Positions 4,357 to 28,302 of a DNA stretch of 30,466 nucleotides are shown in pieces. The first letter of the stretch is position 1; each line of letters opens with the position of its first letter. The notes beneath the pieces were generated by a model. It searched no databases, was not told where the DNA came from, and saw nothing but the letters and a program-made list of their open reading frames with translations. The stretch comes from a virus, in IMG/VR virus record IMGVR_UViG_3300030107_007601, positions 1 to 30,466 of that record; one strand, 5' to 3'. Made by a program: the position numbers and the translations under genes.

Positions 4357-5505
4357 ATGTGGATTGATAATGATTTTCCGAAGCTTCTTGGTGCAGAGCT
4401 TTATAGACCACACCCCGCTTACGTCATTGAAATGGCAGTAGAGCCAGTAGTGGTACATGATTTCTCAAAGCAGCCAGGTCAGACTGTTCAGTTAGACCGT
4501 TATCGCTTCTGGGGCAAGCCCGGCACTAAGGAGTCCCGTGAGCGGACAGCTGATCAAACTTTAGGATCTGCATCCGCCCGAAACATAGTTAAGGACAAAG
4601 TACTCGTGACGCTTCGTGAGTACACTGGTCCCGCTGACTCACGTGATACAGCCGCACCTAGTACTTTTAAGGTTGCTCGTGAGACTCTAATCACAGCCCA
4701 ACGTCTACTGCTTGATACAGGAAACTTGAATGTTTTCCATCAAAGTATCGGTTCATTAACCTTACTAGATGACTATCGTAGATGGCGTGATCGTGTATTT
4801 GCTAATGAATTATTGAAAGCTGAAGGCAACGGTAAAGCTAGTAAAGATCAAGGCGGTTATTATCTACCTGGAGACCAAACTAAAGGTGGAAGTGGAGGAA
4901 CTTTAGGCGTTACATACGCTGCAAATGCTTCCGCTAAATTTGATGTTAAAACTGACTTATTAGAAGTTGTGAAGGACATGCGTAAACGCAATGTCCCAAC
5001 TTTTGCTGATGGTTATTACCGCTGCATTGTGGATCCAACCGCCATGATGCACCTTCGTCAGAATAGTGATTTCAGAGAGATTGCTAGATATCCTGGCCAA
5101 GGAATGATTAATCCGTTGCAACCAAATGCCGCACCTAATGCCAATTTCTATCAAGGCATGGGTCCAGCTTATGGCCAGGCAGGTTTTGTTGCTGGTCAAC
5201 CAGTTATGCCAACAGGCTTCTTATTTGAAGGAGTTCGTTGGTTCGAGTCCACCAACCTACCTGAAACAACATACAACCTAATTGTTACTGATGCAGCTGC
5301 AGGTGCTGCAGATTATACTGCGGCTCAGTTAATTTTCTTTGGACCACAAGCTGTTGGTGTTGGTATAGGTGGAAACAATGCCCAAATCTTGTTAAATAAC
5401 AACGACGATTTTTCACGTTTCGTGATAATGATTTGGTCTTTGTTTGCCGGGTTTGAAGTTCTCAATAAGGACTTCATCACGGTTGGTTACTCTTTCGTTT
5501 ACTAA
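4357..5505 (+). CDS. Major capsid protein (probable)
   Basis: A 382-residue protein with base composition less AT-biased than its neighbours, as expected for a highly expressed gene. It begins MWIDNDFPKLLGAELYR and contains a basic/Arg-rich spine-like helix region (KVARETLITAQRLLL, then LDDYRRWRDRVFANELL at about 140). A hydrophobic beta-rich C-terminus follows (QLIFFGPQAVGVGIGG). Length, conserved-looking layout and the short downstream partner gene fit an HK97-fold capsid protein, possibly related to the N4-gp56/P22 group; I cannot place the family firmly. It has its own promoter with an inverted repeat and is co-transcribed with the next gene to a strong terminator at 6155. Confidence 0.72.
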   Translation: MWIDNDFPKLLGAELYRPHPAYVIEMAVEPVVVHDFSKQPGQTVQLDRYRFWGKPGTKESRERTADQTLGSASARNIVKDKVLVTLREYTGPADSRDTAAPSTFKVARETLITAQRLLLDTGNLNVFHQSIGSLTLLDDYRRWRDRVFANELLKAEGNGKASKDQGGYYLPGDQTKGGSGGTLGVTYAANASAKFDVKTDLLEVVKDMRKRNVPTFADGYYRCIVDPTAMMHLRQNSDFREIARYPGQGMINPLQPNAAPNANFYQGMGPAYGQAGFVAGQPVMPTGFLFEGVRWFESTNLPETTYNLIVTDAAAGAADYTAAQLIFFGPQAVGVGIGGNNAQILLNNNDDFSRFVIMIWSLFAGFEVLNKDFITVGYSFVY

Positions 5506-21053: not shown

Positions 21054-21176
21054 AATTGTGTAAGCCGTAGCTTGAATAGACAACGCAAATGTCACTTTAC
21101 AAAAAATAAAGTGAAATTTCTTTAGCAAGTGAATCACACAATTGTGGGATTTACAAGCTAAGATACATTTGCGTTG
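21054..21176. repeat. Nested inverted repeats before the integrase
   Basis: Elements occur in the order A, B, C, D hairpin, A', B', C'. A is AATTGTGT (21054-21061), with A' at 21136-21143. B is TAGCTTG (21068-21074), with B' at 21154-21160. C is CAACGCAAATGT (21081-21092), with C' at 21165-21176. D is a hairpin CACTTTA-7 nt-TAAAGTG (21093-21113). Each primed copy is the reverse complement of its partner. The region may hold regulator or integrase arm sites, or a folded RNA. C' overlaps the TACATT box (21164-21169) that is 23 nt before the integrase ATG. Confidence 0.75.
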
Positions 21177-21192
21177 CTTATATCCCAATAGC

Positions 21193-22053
21193 ATGTCATC
21201 TTCTATGAAAGTTTCAGAGCTCCTTGAGCAAGTAAACGAGCTACACCCATGTGCACATAGTACAATAATGGGCCGGCGGTGTGCTTGTAAGCCAATACAA
21301 GATCAAGAGGTTACTAGTATTACAAAACTAACGGCGCGAAAATATTTTAATCAAAATATAAATCATCAATACAGTGATAATTCTGAAGTAAAGCTTACTT
21401 TGAATTCTGGAAGAACTTATATTCGTCACTTAAAAGCAATTTGGAATTATGGTAATAATTCTGGATTGTTTAAAGAAGTATTAGGACATGAAGTAGAAAA
21501 TCCCTGGAAATTATTGTCCTTAGCTCGTGATTTTAAATCAATAGCTAAGATGAAAAAGTATCCAAAACGCGAGTATTCTGATTATTCTTTATATCACCAT
21601 GATCCTTTATTTTTAACGCTATGGTATACCGGTGCACGGATTAGAGAGATTACCGGATTACAGAAGGAAGATATTGTTACGAATGGAGCAATCTGGTATT
21701 TTAATATAAGACCTACTAAGCGTAGACCATTAAAAACCCTTAATTCAGCACGAAAAGTTCCTATACATTCTGCTCTATATGATGTATTAGACGATTTGAA
21801 GATAAATGCACAATTACAGCGTGTTAGGCACCACTGGAGCACGCAATTCCGCATAAACTGTAATCTTGAGCCTAGAGAAGCGGCACATTCGTTACGACAC
21901 AGTTTCCATACGAGAGCAAGAAGAGCAAATATAAATGAGGCGATGATTAGAGAATTGACGGGACATGCACATCCAGTCATAGGTGATTATTATGGAGATT
22001 TTGATTTAGAAACTAAGAAAAAAGCTATTGAGCAGCTTCCTATTGATGAATAG
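21193..22053 (+). CDS. int: Tyrosine recombinase/integrase
   Basis: A 286-residue site-specific recombinase. The N-terminal ~110 residues are an arm/core-binding part. The catalytic domain shows all expected residues: Arg in TGARIREI (about 149), Lys in ARKVPIHS (about 188), H-x-x-R in HSLRHSF (about 231-234), His in LTGHAHPVI (about 258), and the nucleophile Tyr in DYYGDF (about 265-266). ATG 21193 is chosen because TACATT lies 23 nt upstream; a TTG at 21142 would place the start inside the repeats. It is followed by a strong terminator. It implies that this phage, or an ancestor, could integrate, although no attP core can be identified from this sequence alone. Confidence 0.92.
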   Translation: MSSSMKVSELLEQVNELHPCAHSTIMGRRCACKPIQDQEVTSITKLTARKYFNQNINHQYSDNSEVKLTLNSGRTYIRHLKAIWNYGNNSGLFKEVLGHEVENPWKLLSLARDFKSIAKMKKYPKREYSDYSLYHHDPLFLTLWYTGARIREITGLQKEDIVTNGAIWYFNIRPTKRRPLKTLNSARKVPIHSALYDVLDDLKINAQLQRVRHHWSTQFRINCNLEPREAAHSLRHSFHTRARRANINEAMIRELTGHAHPVIGDYYGDFDLETKKKAIEQLPIDE

Positions 22054-22729: not shown

Positions 22730-23191
22730 ATGCAGATTGCTAATGACTGGGGAGAACTTCTTTATACCCTAGAGTGCCTTTCTAAAGGTTCTGCAAAACG
22801 CAAATTCCGAGAAATAATTAAATATTCTTGGGGTGGTGTTTGTGCATATTGCCGCTCTAATAGAGCAGATACAATAGACCATATCAAACCAAAATGCCAT
22901 GGTGGAGGCAATTCCTTAAGATCAAATTTATTACCTTGTTGTCAGCAATGCAACCATTCGAAAGGATCTGAAAATTGGCTAGTATGGTTTGAACAGCAAT
23001 CCTTTTTTAATATTACAGCTAAAGAATTGATAGATGAATGGATTGCAAATAAACGTTTTATAGAGGAGCAATTAGATGAGCAACGTCCCGGATCTAACAA
23101 TCGAGCAACGATTCGCGTTGACGAGGGCGCGTTACGAAATTGGCAGGATGAGCCGACCAAATCTGGAAAAAACTGCCTTGCGGTTGCTTAA
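22730..23191 (+). CDS. HNH endonuclease
   Basis: A 153-residue protein with a zinc-bound HNH core: Cys38-x-x-Cys41 (CAYC), DHIKPK at 50-55, NLLPCCQQCNHSKGS at 66-80 with the second Cys pair and final His/Asn. It is the McrA/phage-type HNH and should nick or cut DNA, as a homing gene or as a packaging helper near a terminase; no terminase is in this window. A TAGTAT box lies 25 nt upstream. The last 116 nt overlap the next gene in another frame, and the last ~38 residues look unstructured, so the end may be a read-through extension. Confidence 0.85.
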   Translation: MQIANDWGELLYTLECLSKGSAKRKFREIIKYSWGGVCAYCRSNRADTIDHIKPKCHGGGNSLRSNLLPCCQQCNHSKGSENWLVWFEQQSFFNITAKELIDEWIANKRFIEEQLDEQRPGSNNRATIRVDEGALRNWQDEPTKSGKNCLAVA

Positions 23192-25232: not shown

Positions 25233-25520
25233 ATGTCAAAGTTAAAAAATGTGTTACGTAATATTGATCTTGATAAAAATCCAGAAACATTAGAATATTA
25301 CAATAATGATCCATATGGCCAGATTGCAGCATGGGAAGATAGTATAAGTGAAGTTACTGGACGAAATATTTCAGAAGAATTAAATAATTTAAATAAAAGT
25401 AAAGGAATTATTTCGGATAATCAATTGTTGGATGCTTTATTACTATTAGGCCTTGGAGGCGGCGGTGTCAGTATACTAAGTAATGATAATCCTGAAGTTA
25501 TGTATTTGGAGAACGCATAA
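25233..25520 (+). CDS. Small hypothetical protein, 95 residues
   Basis: A plus-strand gene among minus-strand ones. It is acidic and helical, with a short Gly-rich hydrophobic segment near the end (LLDALLLLGLGGGGVSIL) that may be a membrane contact. Its last 23 nt overlap the convergent gene. It has a TATAAT box. No family recognised. Confidence 0.6.
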   Translation: MSKLKNVLRNIDLDKNPETLEYYNNDPYGQIAAWEDSISEVTGRNISEELNNLNKSKGIISDNQLLDALLLLGLGGGGVSILSNDNPEVMYLENA

Positions 25521-25704
25521 ATGAGAATTCTAATATAGCTCCATTTAGAAACTTCTTTAGATGAAATAACTCTTCTTGATCTAATTCACCTTCACCAGTC
25601 CATTTTTCTAAAGTATAATTAACTGCTTGCGCTAAAGCTTTAACTGCCCGTTCAGGCAGATCAACTGTTACTCCAATTCCATTTTCGTGATTTTCTTCAA
25701 TCAT
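25498..25704 (-). CDS. Small hypothetical protein, 68 residues
   Basis: A helical acidic protein (MIEENHENGIGVTVDLPERA, LDQEELFHLKKFLNGAIL). It starts 12 nt after the DNA polymerase stop and so is probably at the end of that operon. Its end overlaps the convergent gene at 25233 by 23 nt. No motif suggests a function. Confidence 0.55.
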   Translation of the reverse strand: MIEENHENGIGVTVDLPERAVKALAQAVNYTLEKWTGEGELDQEELFHLKKFLNGAILEFSFMRSPNT

Positions 25705-25716
25705 TTATATAGTATA

Positions 25717-27021
25717 TCAATGTGTTGCGGCCCAATTAGCTCCACTAGCTGCTGATGCAGTAATTGGTACACGAAAATCATAGTATTTACCTGATAATGG
25801 AGCTGCAGATTCTAGTAATTGTTTAACTCGATCAACTTCACTTGGTATTACACTTAGTTGAACTTCATCGTGTACATAAGCACAGCGATTATAGTCATTA
25901 GATGTAAGTCCATTTTCTTTTAACAAATCCTCTCCTATAACAACCCAGCGTTTAGATAGTACTGCTCCTGCACTTTGAAGTAGATAGTTCAATGCGGAAT
26001 GTTCAGCTTTACAATAAATTGGTCGTCTATCAATAGCTCTAAGTATTCCGATTTCTCGAACACGGAGTTTAACTGCATTAATTAGTGGTTCTAATCCTGG
26101 AATAGCGTCAAGAAATTTTCGACGTAATTCCTGTCCTAATGTTTTTTTCTGAGCATCACTTAATTCTGGATGCAATGAGTGTCCTAGTTTTTGATCACCA
26201 GCCCCATAAATAAATGCATAAGTAATCTTTTTCACCTCAGTACGAGTGCATCCAACACGATCAGCGTTTTGTTGATGAATATCTCCGTCAAGTACAACTT
26301 GAGCAAATGCTCCGTTATCATATTTTGAAAGATAGTGACCTAAACATCTTAATTCTAATCCTTCTAAATCAGCACCTACCATTACATGACCTGGATGAGG
26401 AATGAATAATTCTCTTGCCCAAGGTGCACTAACTACTTGCCCTAAATTAGGACCTCTATGAGCATTTCGTCCTGTCTGTGTAGCAAGTACACAGGAATGG
26501 TGAATGCAGCCATCGCCCTCAATAGAGTTGAACCATGAATTGCTCCCCTCCGATAACTGCCCTAACCATTTTTGTAGAGTTAATAAGCGAATAAACAGTC
26601 CACACTCATCATGCAGCTGCTTATTTCCTTGAGAGAGTGCATTATCTCGTACTTCAGATAAAGTAGCTTCATCAACTTTAGGTTTACCATTATCAGTAAT
26701 TTTTAAAAATCGAGCACCACGAAAGTTTTGTAATACCCAAGCAATATTTTGCCGGCTTGTTGGATTAAATTCAATTAATTTTGTTAAAGGTGCTCCTGCA
26801 ACATAACCTTTCTTTTTATCAGCACGTCGTGGTGTAAAAACTTTACCAGGCACATAAGTGAAAGTAGAAGTTATTTTATTTACTAACTCATTAAATTCAT
26901 TTTGTAGTTCTTTACGTACACGTGTAGCAGCTTCTGTATCAAATCGAAATCCAGATGCTTCTTGTTCTGCCATTAGTAGAGCAAGCTGCATTTCAAGGGT
27001 TACATAATCAGGAATTTTCAT
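25717..27021 (-). CDS. T7-type family A DNA polymerase, polymerase part (split gene)
   Basis: A 434-residue polymerase of the T7 gp5 class without its exonuclease domain. Motif A is VGADLEGLELRCLGHY (Asp about 217). Motif B is TRTEVKKITYAFIYG, with Arg, Lys and Tyr in the T7 518/522/526 positions. Motif C is AYVHDEVQLSV (Asp about 385). All catalytic residues are present. The start MKIPDYVTLEM lines up with the T7 polymerase region after the exonuclease. Compared with remembered T7 gp5, the segment before YVAGAP that forms the thioredoxin-binding loop is ~40 residues shorter. Start at 27021 overlaps the 79-residue gene by 14 nt; the ATG at 27108 would run through it. The exonuclease is encoded separately upstream. 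Confidence 0.93.
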   Translation of the reverse strand: MKIPDYVTLEMQLALLMAEQEASGFRFDTEAATRVRKELQNEFNELVNKITSTFTYVPGKVFTPRRADKKKGYVAGAPLTKLIEFNPTSRQNIAWVLQNFRGARFLKITDNGKPKVDEATLSEVRDNALSQGNKQLHDECGLFIRLLTLQKWLGQLSEGSNSWFNSIEGDGCIHHSCVLATQTGRNAHRGPNLGQVVSAPWARELFIPHPGHVMVGADLEGLELRCLGHYLSKYDNGAFAQVVLDGDIHQQNADRVGCTRTEVKKITYAFIYGAGDQKLGHSLHPELSDAQKKTLGQELRRKFLDAIPGLEPLINAVKLRVREIGILRAIDRRPIYCKAEHSALNYLLQSAGAVLSKRWVVIGEDLLKENGLTSNDYNRCAYVHDEVQLSVIPSEVDRVKQLLESAAPLSGKYYDFRVPITASAASGANWAATH

Positions 27022-27247
27022 TTTTATCAATAGTTTTAATGAATCCAAATGCATCAGATTGTTCTTTTTCAATAAGTTCGCTGCGTTGTTTATGAGCAAG
27101 TTTGGCAATATTTTCCATAACTTTTAACACATCTTCAATTGTTGAAGTTGAAGGCATTCGTGTTTTAACAATGTCAAAAAGAGGGAAAAATATTTCTGAA
27201 GCATTTTTCATCTCTTCTACAGTTAATGGGTCCTTTTTATTGGGCAT
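27008..27247 (-). CDS. Small protein between split polymerase halves, 79 residues
   Basis: A helical protein (MPNKKDPLTVEEMKNASEIF, SEIFFPLFDIVKTRMP) with an Ala/Gln-rich helix and end AFGFIKTIDK. A similar small protein with an '(P/A)FGFNK' end occurs beside DNA polymerases in cyanophages as I remember. Its start overlaps the exonuclease by 11 nt and its end overlaps the polymerase by 14 nt, so the three are probably translated as one coupled unit. It might bridge the two halves, but no evidence shows that. Confidence 0.7.
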   Translation of the reverse strand: MPNKKDPLTVEEMKNASEIFFPLFDIVKTRMPSTSTIEDVLKVMENIAKLAHKQRSELIEKEQSDAFGFIKTIDKNENS

Positions 27248-27767
27248 AATCTTTCATTCTCCGTGTTAATGTTTCGTATAGTTTAAGTGTGACTAAGGTA
27301 TCAGTGATGCAATAATCAAGCATTTCGGGTGTGTATTTATCCCAAGCTCCGTCATGTTTACCGTAGTCTCCTTTGAAACATTTTAAACGGTAACCCCAGG
27401 CTTCGAGGGAGTGTTTTCCATACAATCGCTGTGGCATTCCCGAAGGGCGACGTGTGTAATCACGATCGATAATATCAGGATAATAAAGCCTTGATAAGAC
27501 CAACGTATCCAACAATTTACCTTTGGGTTTAAAGGTCGGAAATTGTTCTTGTAAAAGAGGAACATCATAAGAAATTATATTGTGGCCGATTAAGGCATCA
27601 GCTGTTTCTAATTGTTTTACACCTTGAATTACAGCTCGTTCAGGTTGATAATCAAAGACTTCAACATTATTTATATCATTTAATTCACGCATAACAATGC
27701 AGTGAATAGTAGAACCTTTTCGAAGTAATCCTGTAGTTTCTATATCAAATAGGTACCTCTTCATCAT
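27237..27767 (-). CDS. T7-type 3'-5' exonuclease, separate polypeptide
   Basis: A 176-residue proofreading exonuclease equal to the N-terminal domain of T7 gp5. DxE motif: FDIETTGLL (Asp8, Glu10). ExoII: HNIISYDVPLL (Asp about 67). ExoIII: MLDYCITDTLVTLKL (Asp about 156). The stretch YGKHSLEAWGYRLKCFKGDYG matches the T7 domain well. ATG 27767 is chosen for AAGGAG located 6 nt upstream; longer starts would run into the upstream gene. It overlaps that gene by 23 nt and the next by 11 nt. The domain ends where T7 gp5 continues into the polymerase, so the chain has been cut at the domain boundary. Catalytic residues are intact. Confidence 0.92.
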   Translation of the reverse strand: MMKRYLFDIETTGLLRKGSTIHCIVMRELNDINNVEVFDYQPERAVIQGVKQLETADALIGHNIISYDVPLLQEQFPTFKPKGKLLDTLVLSRLYYPDIIDRDYTRRPSGMPQRLYGKHSLEAWGYRLKCFKGDYGKHDGAWDKYTPEMLDYCITDTLVTLKLYETLTRRMKDYAQ

Positions 27768-28302
27768 AAATTTCTCCTTTTTCTTGTGGATCGTATTCGT
27801 CAAATTTGAAGTCATTTGAAATTGACGGTTGTTCTTCAATTCCGTCATCGATTGAACTATTTTTTGAGAATCTTGGATCTGATTTTTCATATATAGGTTC
27901 TATAGCAAGTTCTAGTTCACGTGCTAATCGAGCAGCACGTCTAAATTCATCTTTGTAATAAGCTTCCCACTCATGTGGCATGAAGCAAATACGTTTAATC
28001 CCCATTAAATAGCACTGGAATACCGATGCTGAAAAGGGGTAACGTGTACTATAAACGACAGCTCCTACAGTAGGTGTGCCTCGTTTAGATGATACACCAA
28101 TGGCATAAGTTAAACAATCAATTTCGACCTTAGAAGAACATAAAATACTTCTACCAGTACCGATGATTTCTCTATCGCGTACAAGCACGCATCCTCCAGG
28201 AAATTTTGGATGTGTCGAGGCAGATGCAATTGTTTTAGCAATTTGCATGAAATATCTGTCTTTATTTTTTATATACGTTGGGTCTCGTTTTGGTGCATTC
28301 AT
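27745..28302 (-). CDS. dCMP-deaminase-like protein, catalytic and zinc residues lost
   Basis: A 185-residue protein with the deaminase scaffold: DRYFMQIAKTIASAS at 15-29, GCVLVRDREIIGTG at 37-50 and MGIKRICF at 100-107. The zinc/catalytic H-A-E is D62-C63-L64, and P-C-x-x-C is P89-F90-S-A-S93. All three zinc ligands and the proton-shuttling Glu are absent, so it cannot work as a deaminase in the known way. The last ~60 residues are an acidic extension not typical of the family. It sits first in the exonuclease-polymerase operon, overlapping the exonuclease by 23 nt. It may be a nucleotide-binding regulatory or assembly subunit. Confidence 0.75.
   Translation of the reverse strand: MNAPKRDPTYIKNKDRYFMQIAKTIASASTHPKFPGGCVLVRDREIIGTGRSILCSSKVEIDCLTYAIGVSSKRGTPTVGAVVYSTRYPFSASVFQCYLMGIKRICFMPHEWEAYYKDEFRRAARLARELELAIEPIYEKSDPRFSKNSSIDDGIEEQPSISNDFKFDEYDPQEKGEIYDEEVPI

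Follow-up and report, generated by a model that had tools for sequence, protein, structure and literature searches.

In T7, Syn5, S-CBP2, P60, S-TIP28, SS120-1, HTVC019P and CRP-403 the T7-type DNA polymerase is encoded by one gene. Separate exonuclease and polymerase ORFs are annotated in the records of P-SSP7 and S-TIP37, together with a note of a split or frameshift; for P-SSP7, split ORFs or a frameshift are also stated in the literature (PMC3350473). Both ORFs are likewise annotated separately in the records of S-SBP1 and a MedDCM phage. The split itself is therefore not new, being already recorded for P-SSP7, S-TIP37 and S-SBP1, and the new part described here is a junction which accepts genes. 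We consider it likely that the present locus belongs to an S-EIV1-like phage with a two-chain T7-type polymerase, in which an old split at the domain linker serves as a junction for cargo genes, here a member of PHROG 2171.

The sequence analyzed (the window) is a 30,466-base IMG/VR virus record, and all genes of the cluster lie on its minus strand. Features are given below in the order of translation.

27745..28302, minus strand: deaminase-fold gene (PF00383, E 1e-6), upstream in the same cluster
27237..27767, minus strand: separately encoded 176-aa 3'-5' exonuclease, equivalent to the N-terminal part of T7 gp5 (DnaQ type) (ATG 27767, stop 27237)
27259..27262, minus strand: GGAG ribosome-binding-like motif read from the sequence, within exonuclease Arg-Arg-Met codons and ahead of the slot-gene start
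27237..27247, minus strand: overlap of exonuclease stop and slot-gene start, 11 nt
27008..27247, minus strand: 79-aa middle (slot) gene, PHROG 2171 family (ATG 27247, stop 27008)
27008..27021, minus strand: overlap of slot-gene stop and polymerase start, 14 nt, with the TGA inside polymerase Pro-Asp codons (CCTGAT)
25717..27021, minus strand: separately encoded 434-aa family A polymerase, equivalent to the C-terminal part of T7 gp5 (ATG 27021, stop 25717)
26806..26856, minus strand: thioredoxin-binding-loop region in its short form (17 aa; residues 56-72 of the polymerase)
25498..25704, minus strand: downstream gene, 68 aa, phrog_628 (family of unassigned function)

The arrangement reported in the first-pass annotation, a split T7-type polymerase with a 79-residue gene between its parts and overlaps of 11 and 14 nt, was confirmed at these coordinates. 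The end of the deaminase-fold gene overlaps the exonuclease start by 23 nt, giving successive overlaps of 23, 11 and 14 nt among the first four genes, and the polymerase reading frame is open upstream of its ATG as far as a TTG at 27108. No phage record was matched when the region was searched by megablast. The deaminase-fold gene is kept upstream of the exonuclease in relatives; its HAE and PCxxC zinc motifs were seemingly absent from the window and from the relatives examined, and its product may be a deaminase that has lost catalytic activity and is linked to the polymerase operon.

The major capsid protein (4357-5505) was 67% identical over its full length to that of S-EIV1, the sole phage record matched, and 92-96% identical to six IMG/VR contigs with the same polymerase cluster, five of which carried a psbA-type gene. 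Judged by these comparisons, the window phage is an S-EIV1-like marine cyanophage. The polymerase was only 33% identical to the intact enzyme of S-EIV1, below the 43-47% measured to cyanopodoviruses, and this disparity with the capsid suggests that the replication module has probably been exchanged between phage lineages. Other genes of the window, all on the plus strand, include a phage-encoded RNA polymerase sigma factor (1230-2177; phrog_351, E 3.5e-81), an integrase with a TTG start (21142-22053; phrog_1), which had relatives at 31-40% identity in four of seven related contigs, and an HNH endonuclease (22730-23191) 45% identical to an S-EIV1 HNH nuclease gene.

The two polymerase halves and the origin of the split

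The exonuclease aligned to residues 4-186 of T7 gp5 (E 1e-15) and matched phrog_17 and phrog_403 ('DNA polymerase exonuclease subunit'), while the polymerase half matched the C-terminal part of T7 gp5 through its C-terminus (E 9e-58) as well as the stand-alone phrog_15971 (E 2e-99). A structural model of the polymerase half was matched to T7 polymerase structures by Foldseek (E 5e-29). Alignment with T7, Syn5 and P60 (T7 numbering) demonstrated conservation of the exonuclease acidic residues D5/E7 (DIE), D65 and D174, and of polymerase residues D475, R518/K522/Y526/Y530 and D654. The claims that both halves keep their catalytic residues and meet at the T7 domain boundary were thus borne out, as all T7 catalytic residues checked were retained and the break lies in the linker joining the two T7 domains. 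A four-acidic-residue 3'-5' exonuclease domain of the T7 gp5 type is present, but on its own polypeptide. The two halves would probably assemble into a gp5-like enzyme.

Relatives were gathered with each of the three proteins as query, giving 107 non-redundant viral loci with both halves, window included. The single continuous chain of T7 gp5 was found neither in the window nor in any other of these loci: a fused exonuclease-polymerase gene, the kind of close relative for which the first-pass annotation had proposed a search, was seen in 0/107. In a tree of the polymerase domain, a branch with 99/87 support, recovered in 100% of bootstrap trees, separated all split enzymes from the intact Syn5, P60 and T7 enzymes. 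The window shares with the P-SSP7 type separate ORFs broken at the domain linker and a place on this polymerase branch, but the direct 40-nt overlap of exonuclease and polymerase seen in that type was not found, as the 79-aa gene intervenes.

We propose that the split arose in an ancestor common to the window lineage and the P-SSP7-type cyanopodoviruses. Two independent splits at the same linker, one in the P-SSP7-type and one in the S-EIV1-like lineage, would fit the differing overlap and frame relation (40 nt in the P-SSP7 type versus 8, 11, 14 or 17 nt in the window lineage). We regard this as unlikely, however, given that the branch described above unites all split enzymes in every bootstrap tree and that the exonuclease end is free to change frame once split. 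A replicative polymerase that is naturally in two parts is an old and stable feature of widespread marine cyanophages.

The junction as a gene slot

The 79-aa family lay between the halves in 72/107 loci and was missing from that position in 35/107, numbers which should not be read as frequencies in the population, as some of the loci were collected with the 79-aa protein itself as query. Most contigs are fragments, and absence of the slot gene refers to the junction, not to whole genomes. By parsimony the slot-gene state changed 14 times, with at least seven changes forced by strongly supported branches; the 79-aa gene has thus been gained or lost repeatedly. Other genes also occupied the slot, namely 58-aa and ~42-50-aa 'WxxxCP' proteins, a 102-aa membrane-type protein and a 187-aa protein. 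A second small family, with a WxxxCP core, recurred in the slot, alone or behind the 79-aa gene (L066:5841-6017, L036:1786-1914, L093:2944-3081). The membrane-type protein of ~100 aa (L040:5700-6008, L050:6408-6644, L051:7621-7881, L110:7898-8101) occupied the slot in certain phages but followed the polymerase in others, which indicates that cargo genes hop between junctions.

The edges of the junction had a recurring geometry. Where the slot gene was absent, exonuclease and polymerase overlapped by 14 nt (15 loci), 8 nt (10 loci), 17 nt (one locus) or a few other values; where it was present, its overlap with the polymerase was 14 nt in 31 loci, 17 nt in 12, 11 nt in 10 and 8 nt in seven, making 14 nt the commonest step in both groups. 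The stop of the upstream gene lay within the first polymerase codons in most loci examined (CCTGAT or CTTGAT, Pro-Asp or Leu-Asp), whatever that gene was, and the terminal Arg-Arg-Met codons of the exonuclease often encoded a GGAG-type motif. Ribosome-binding-like motifs preceded the slot gene in 29/31 loci and the polymerase in 22/28 slot-less loci; no recognizable motif was found ahead of the polymerase start of the window itself.

These observations are consistent with a T7-type polymerase whose proofreading and polymerizing parts are translated separately and function as distinct chains, cut at the natural domain linker. Through the split, the junction would have become a boundary of overlapping genes like any other, open to small cargo genes. 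The last codons of the exonuclease would supply a ribosome-binding motif to any next gene and the first codons of the polymerase a stop codon to any preceding gene, so that a small gene could be inserted with the translational chain unbroken. The first-pass annotation had taken the overlaps to imply coupled translation and not decay; the overlaps do look coupled and decay did not hold up, while translational coupling of the exonuclease, 79-aa and polymerase genes is something we infer from their arrangement. The junction, as a site of insertion at which the overlap steps on either edge stay the same regardless of the gene held, offers a natural experiment, with proofreading and polymerizing chains that could be mixed and with related phages that have or lack the small gene.

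The 79-residue protein, the short loop and alternative readings

Residues 5-78 of the 79-aa protein matched positions 2-73 of the 78-position phrog_2171 profile (E 1e-20), a family of unassigned function. Pfam and NCBIfam held no family for it, and neither a PDB profile search nor fold searches with its model gave a credible match save to its own cyanophage relatives. The AlphaFold2 model is a helical hairpin (helices 10-30 and 37-70, pLDDT 85) and, together with a 42-member alignment, indicated a conserved FGF motif followed by an acidic tail that is disordered or modeled with low confidence. Values of dN/dS among relatives were mostly 0.03-0.11, with one pair at 0.37, and on these values the family is under strong purifying selection. 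In other, T4-like cyanophages the PHROG 2171 gene lies after thyX (S-CAM1 and metagenomic contigs L014, L018 and L023), gp32 (S-SM1) or a late sigma factor (Sf-FR1) and, in S-E7, before endonuclease V, often with short overlaps. It is absent from the complete split-polymerase genomes of P-SSP7, S-TIP37, S-B28 and S-SBP1. The cargo in the window would accordingly be described as an independently selected small cyanophage protein, found elsewhere behind replication and transcription genes, and its function appears to be independent of the polymerase.

The loop before YVAGAP had been described as about 40 residues shorter than in T7 gp5. This was upheld in the alignment with T7, Syn5 and P60, where 58 residues separate the pre-loop TF from YVAGAP in T7 and 18 in the window; the long thioredoxin-binding loop of the T7 type is thus lacking, and the polymerase model had low pLDDT at residues 64-79, in the loop area. 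The loop was 17 aa in all split cyanophage polymerases aligned, slot gene present or absent, and also in the intact enzymes of Syn5, P60, S-CBP2 and SS120-1 (18 in S-EIV1). A search for a phage-encoded thioredoxin gave weak, below-cut-off matches in relatives and none in the window. In related contigs a thioredoxin-like protein with CNPC (L171:1450-1845; below the Pfam cut-off) is encoded at a distance of two genes from a MazG-like gene, and this protein could be a phage-encoded polymerase partner.

The 79-aa protein might instead be a subunit of the split polymerase which bridges the chains or replaces thioredoxin at the shortened loop, and the latter role, as a processivity factor, had been suggested in the first-pass annotation. 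Its position between the halves in so many loci, its purifying selection, its small helical form with FGF motif and acidic tail, and the co-expression suggested by the overlaps would all suit such a subunit. We find this reading improbable nonetheless. Loop length was unaffected by presence of the gene and equally short in fused cyanophage enzymes, which left replacement of thioredoxin without support; nor does the gene always accompany the polymerase, as it is missing from complete split-polymerase genomes, has been repeatedly gained or lost, and in T4-like cyanophages has homologues adjoining thyX, gp32, sigma or endonuclease V genes. A more general role, in which PHROG 2171 is a small replisome adaptor of cyanophages docking through its FGF motif and acidic tail on replication and transcription proteins, and in the window lineage regulating handover between the polymerase and proofreading chains, is a speculative and rather doubtful idea. 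If true, it would explain why the gene lies beside exonuclease/polymerase, gp32, thyX and late sigma genes.

Ribosomal frameshifting that joins the halves into one chain, which has been suggested for P-SSP7, would agree with the possible frameshift noted in the records of P-SSP7 and S-TIP37 (for P-SSP7 also PMC3350473) and with the different frames of the overlapping genes, but it is most improbable here: two shifts would be needed, the chain would contain the 79-aa protein, and in several relatives, including L036, L040, L045 and L093, an upstream stop of its own closes off the polymerase frame, which starts 100-300 nt past the end of the preceding 79-aa gene. A single frameshifted chain, which the first-pass annotation had named as evidence against a true split, can therefore not be general. 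As frameshifting is excludable for several members of this sister lineage, the 'frameshift or split' annotations of the P-SSP7 type more likely denote a true split. Decay was ruled out by the catalytic residues, the lack of fused loci and the low dN/dS, in agreement with the earlier view of a functional split, and a chance arrangement by the gene order recurring in relatives together with the dN/dS of the middle gene.

Comparison with known systems

The OM43 phages MEP401 and MEP402 (PMC10580990) likewise have two polymerase ORFs with a small unknown ORF between them, but there the break is within the polymerase domain and an intron was suspected by the authors. T4-like cyanophages (S-SM2, S-CAM1, S-SM1) have the small PHROG 2171 family in common with the window, although in the records examined it adjoins thyX/PhoH, gp32, late sigma or endonuclease V genes, with no T7-type polymerase as neighbor. 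S-EIV1 represents the same phage lineage, with a capsid and several other genes homologous to those of the window; unlike the window it has a continuous polymerase, 33% identical, and no PHROG 2171.

With respect to the enzyme itself, T7 gp5 and the polymerases of Syn5, P60 and S-CBP2 have the same domains, catalytic residues and fold as that of the window, but on one continuous chain. The thioredoxin-binding loop of T7 is longer by ~40 residues, and Syn5 and P60 share the short form. Among the split enzymes, those of P-SSP7 (ORF17A/17B), S-TIP37, S-B28 and S-SBP1 resemble the window in their separate overlapping ORFs, break at the same linker, polymerase branch and short loop. They differ in having a direct 40-nt overlap, another frame relation and nothing between the two ORFs, and in being carried on small podovirus genomes.
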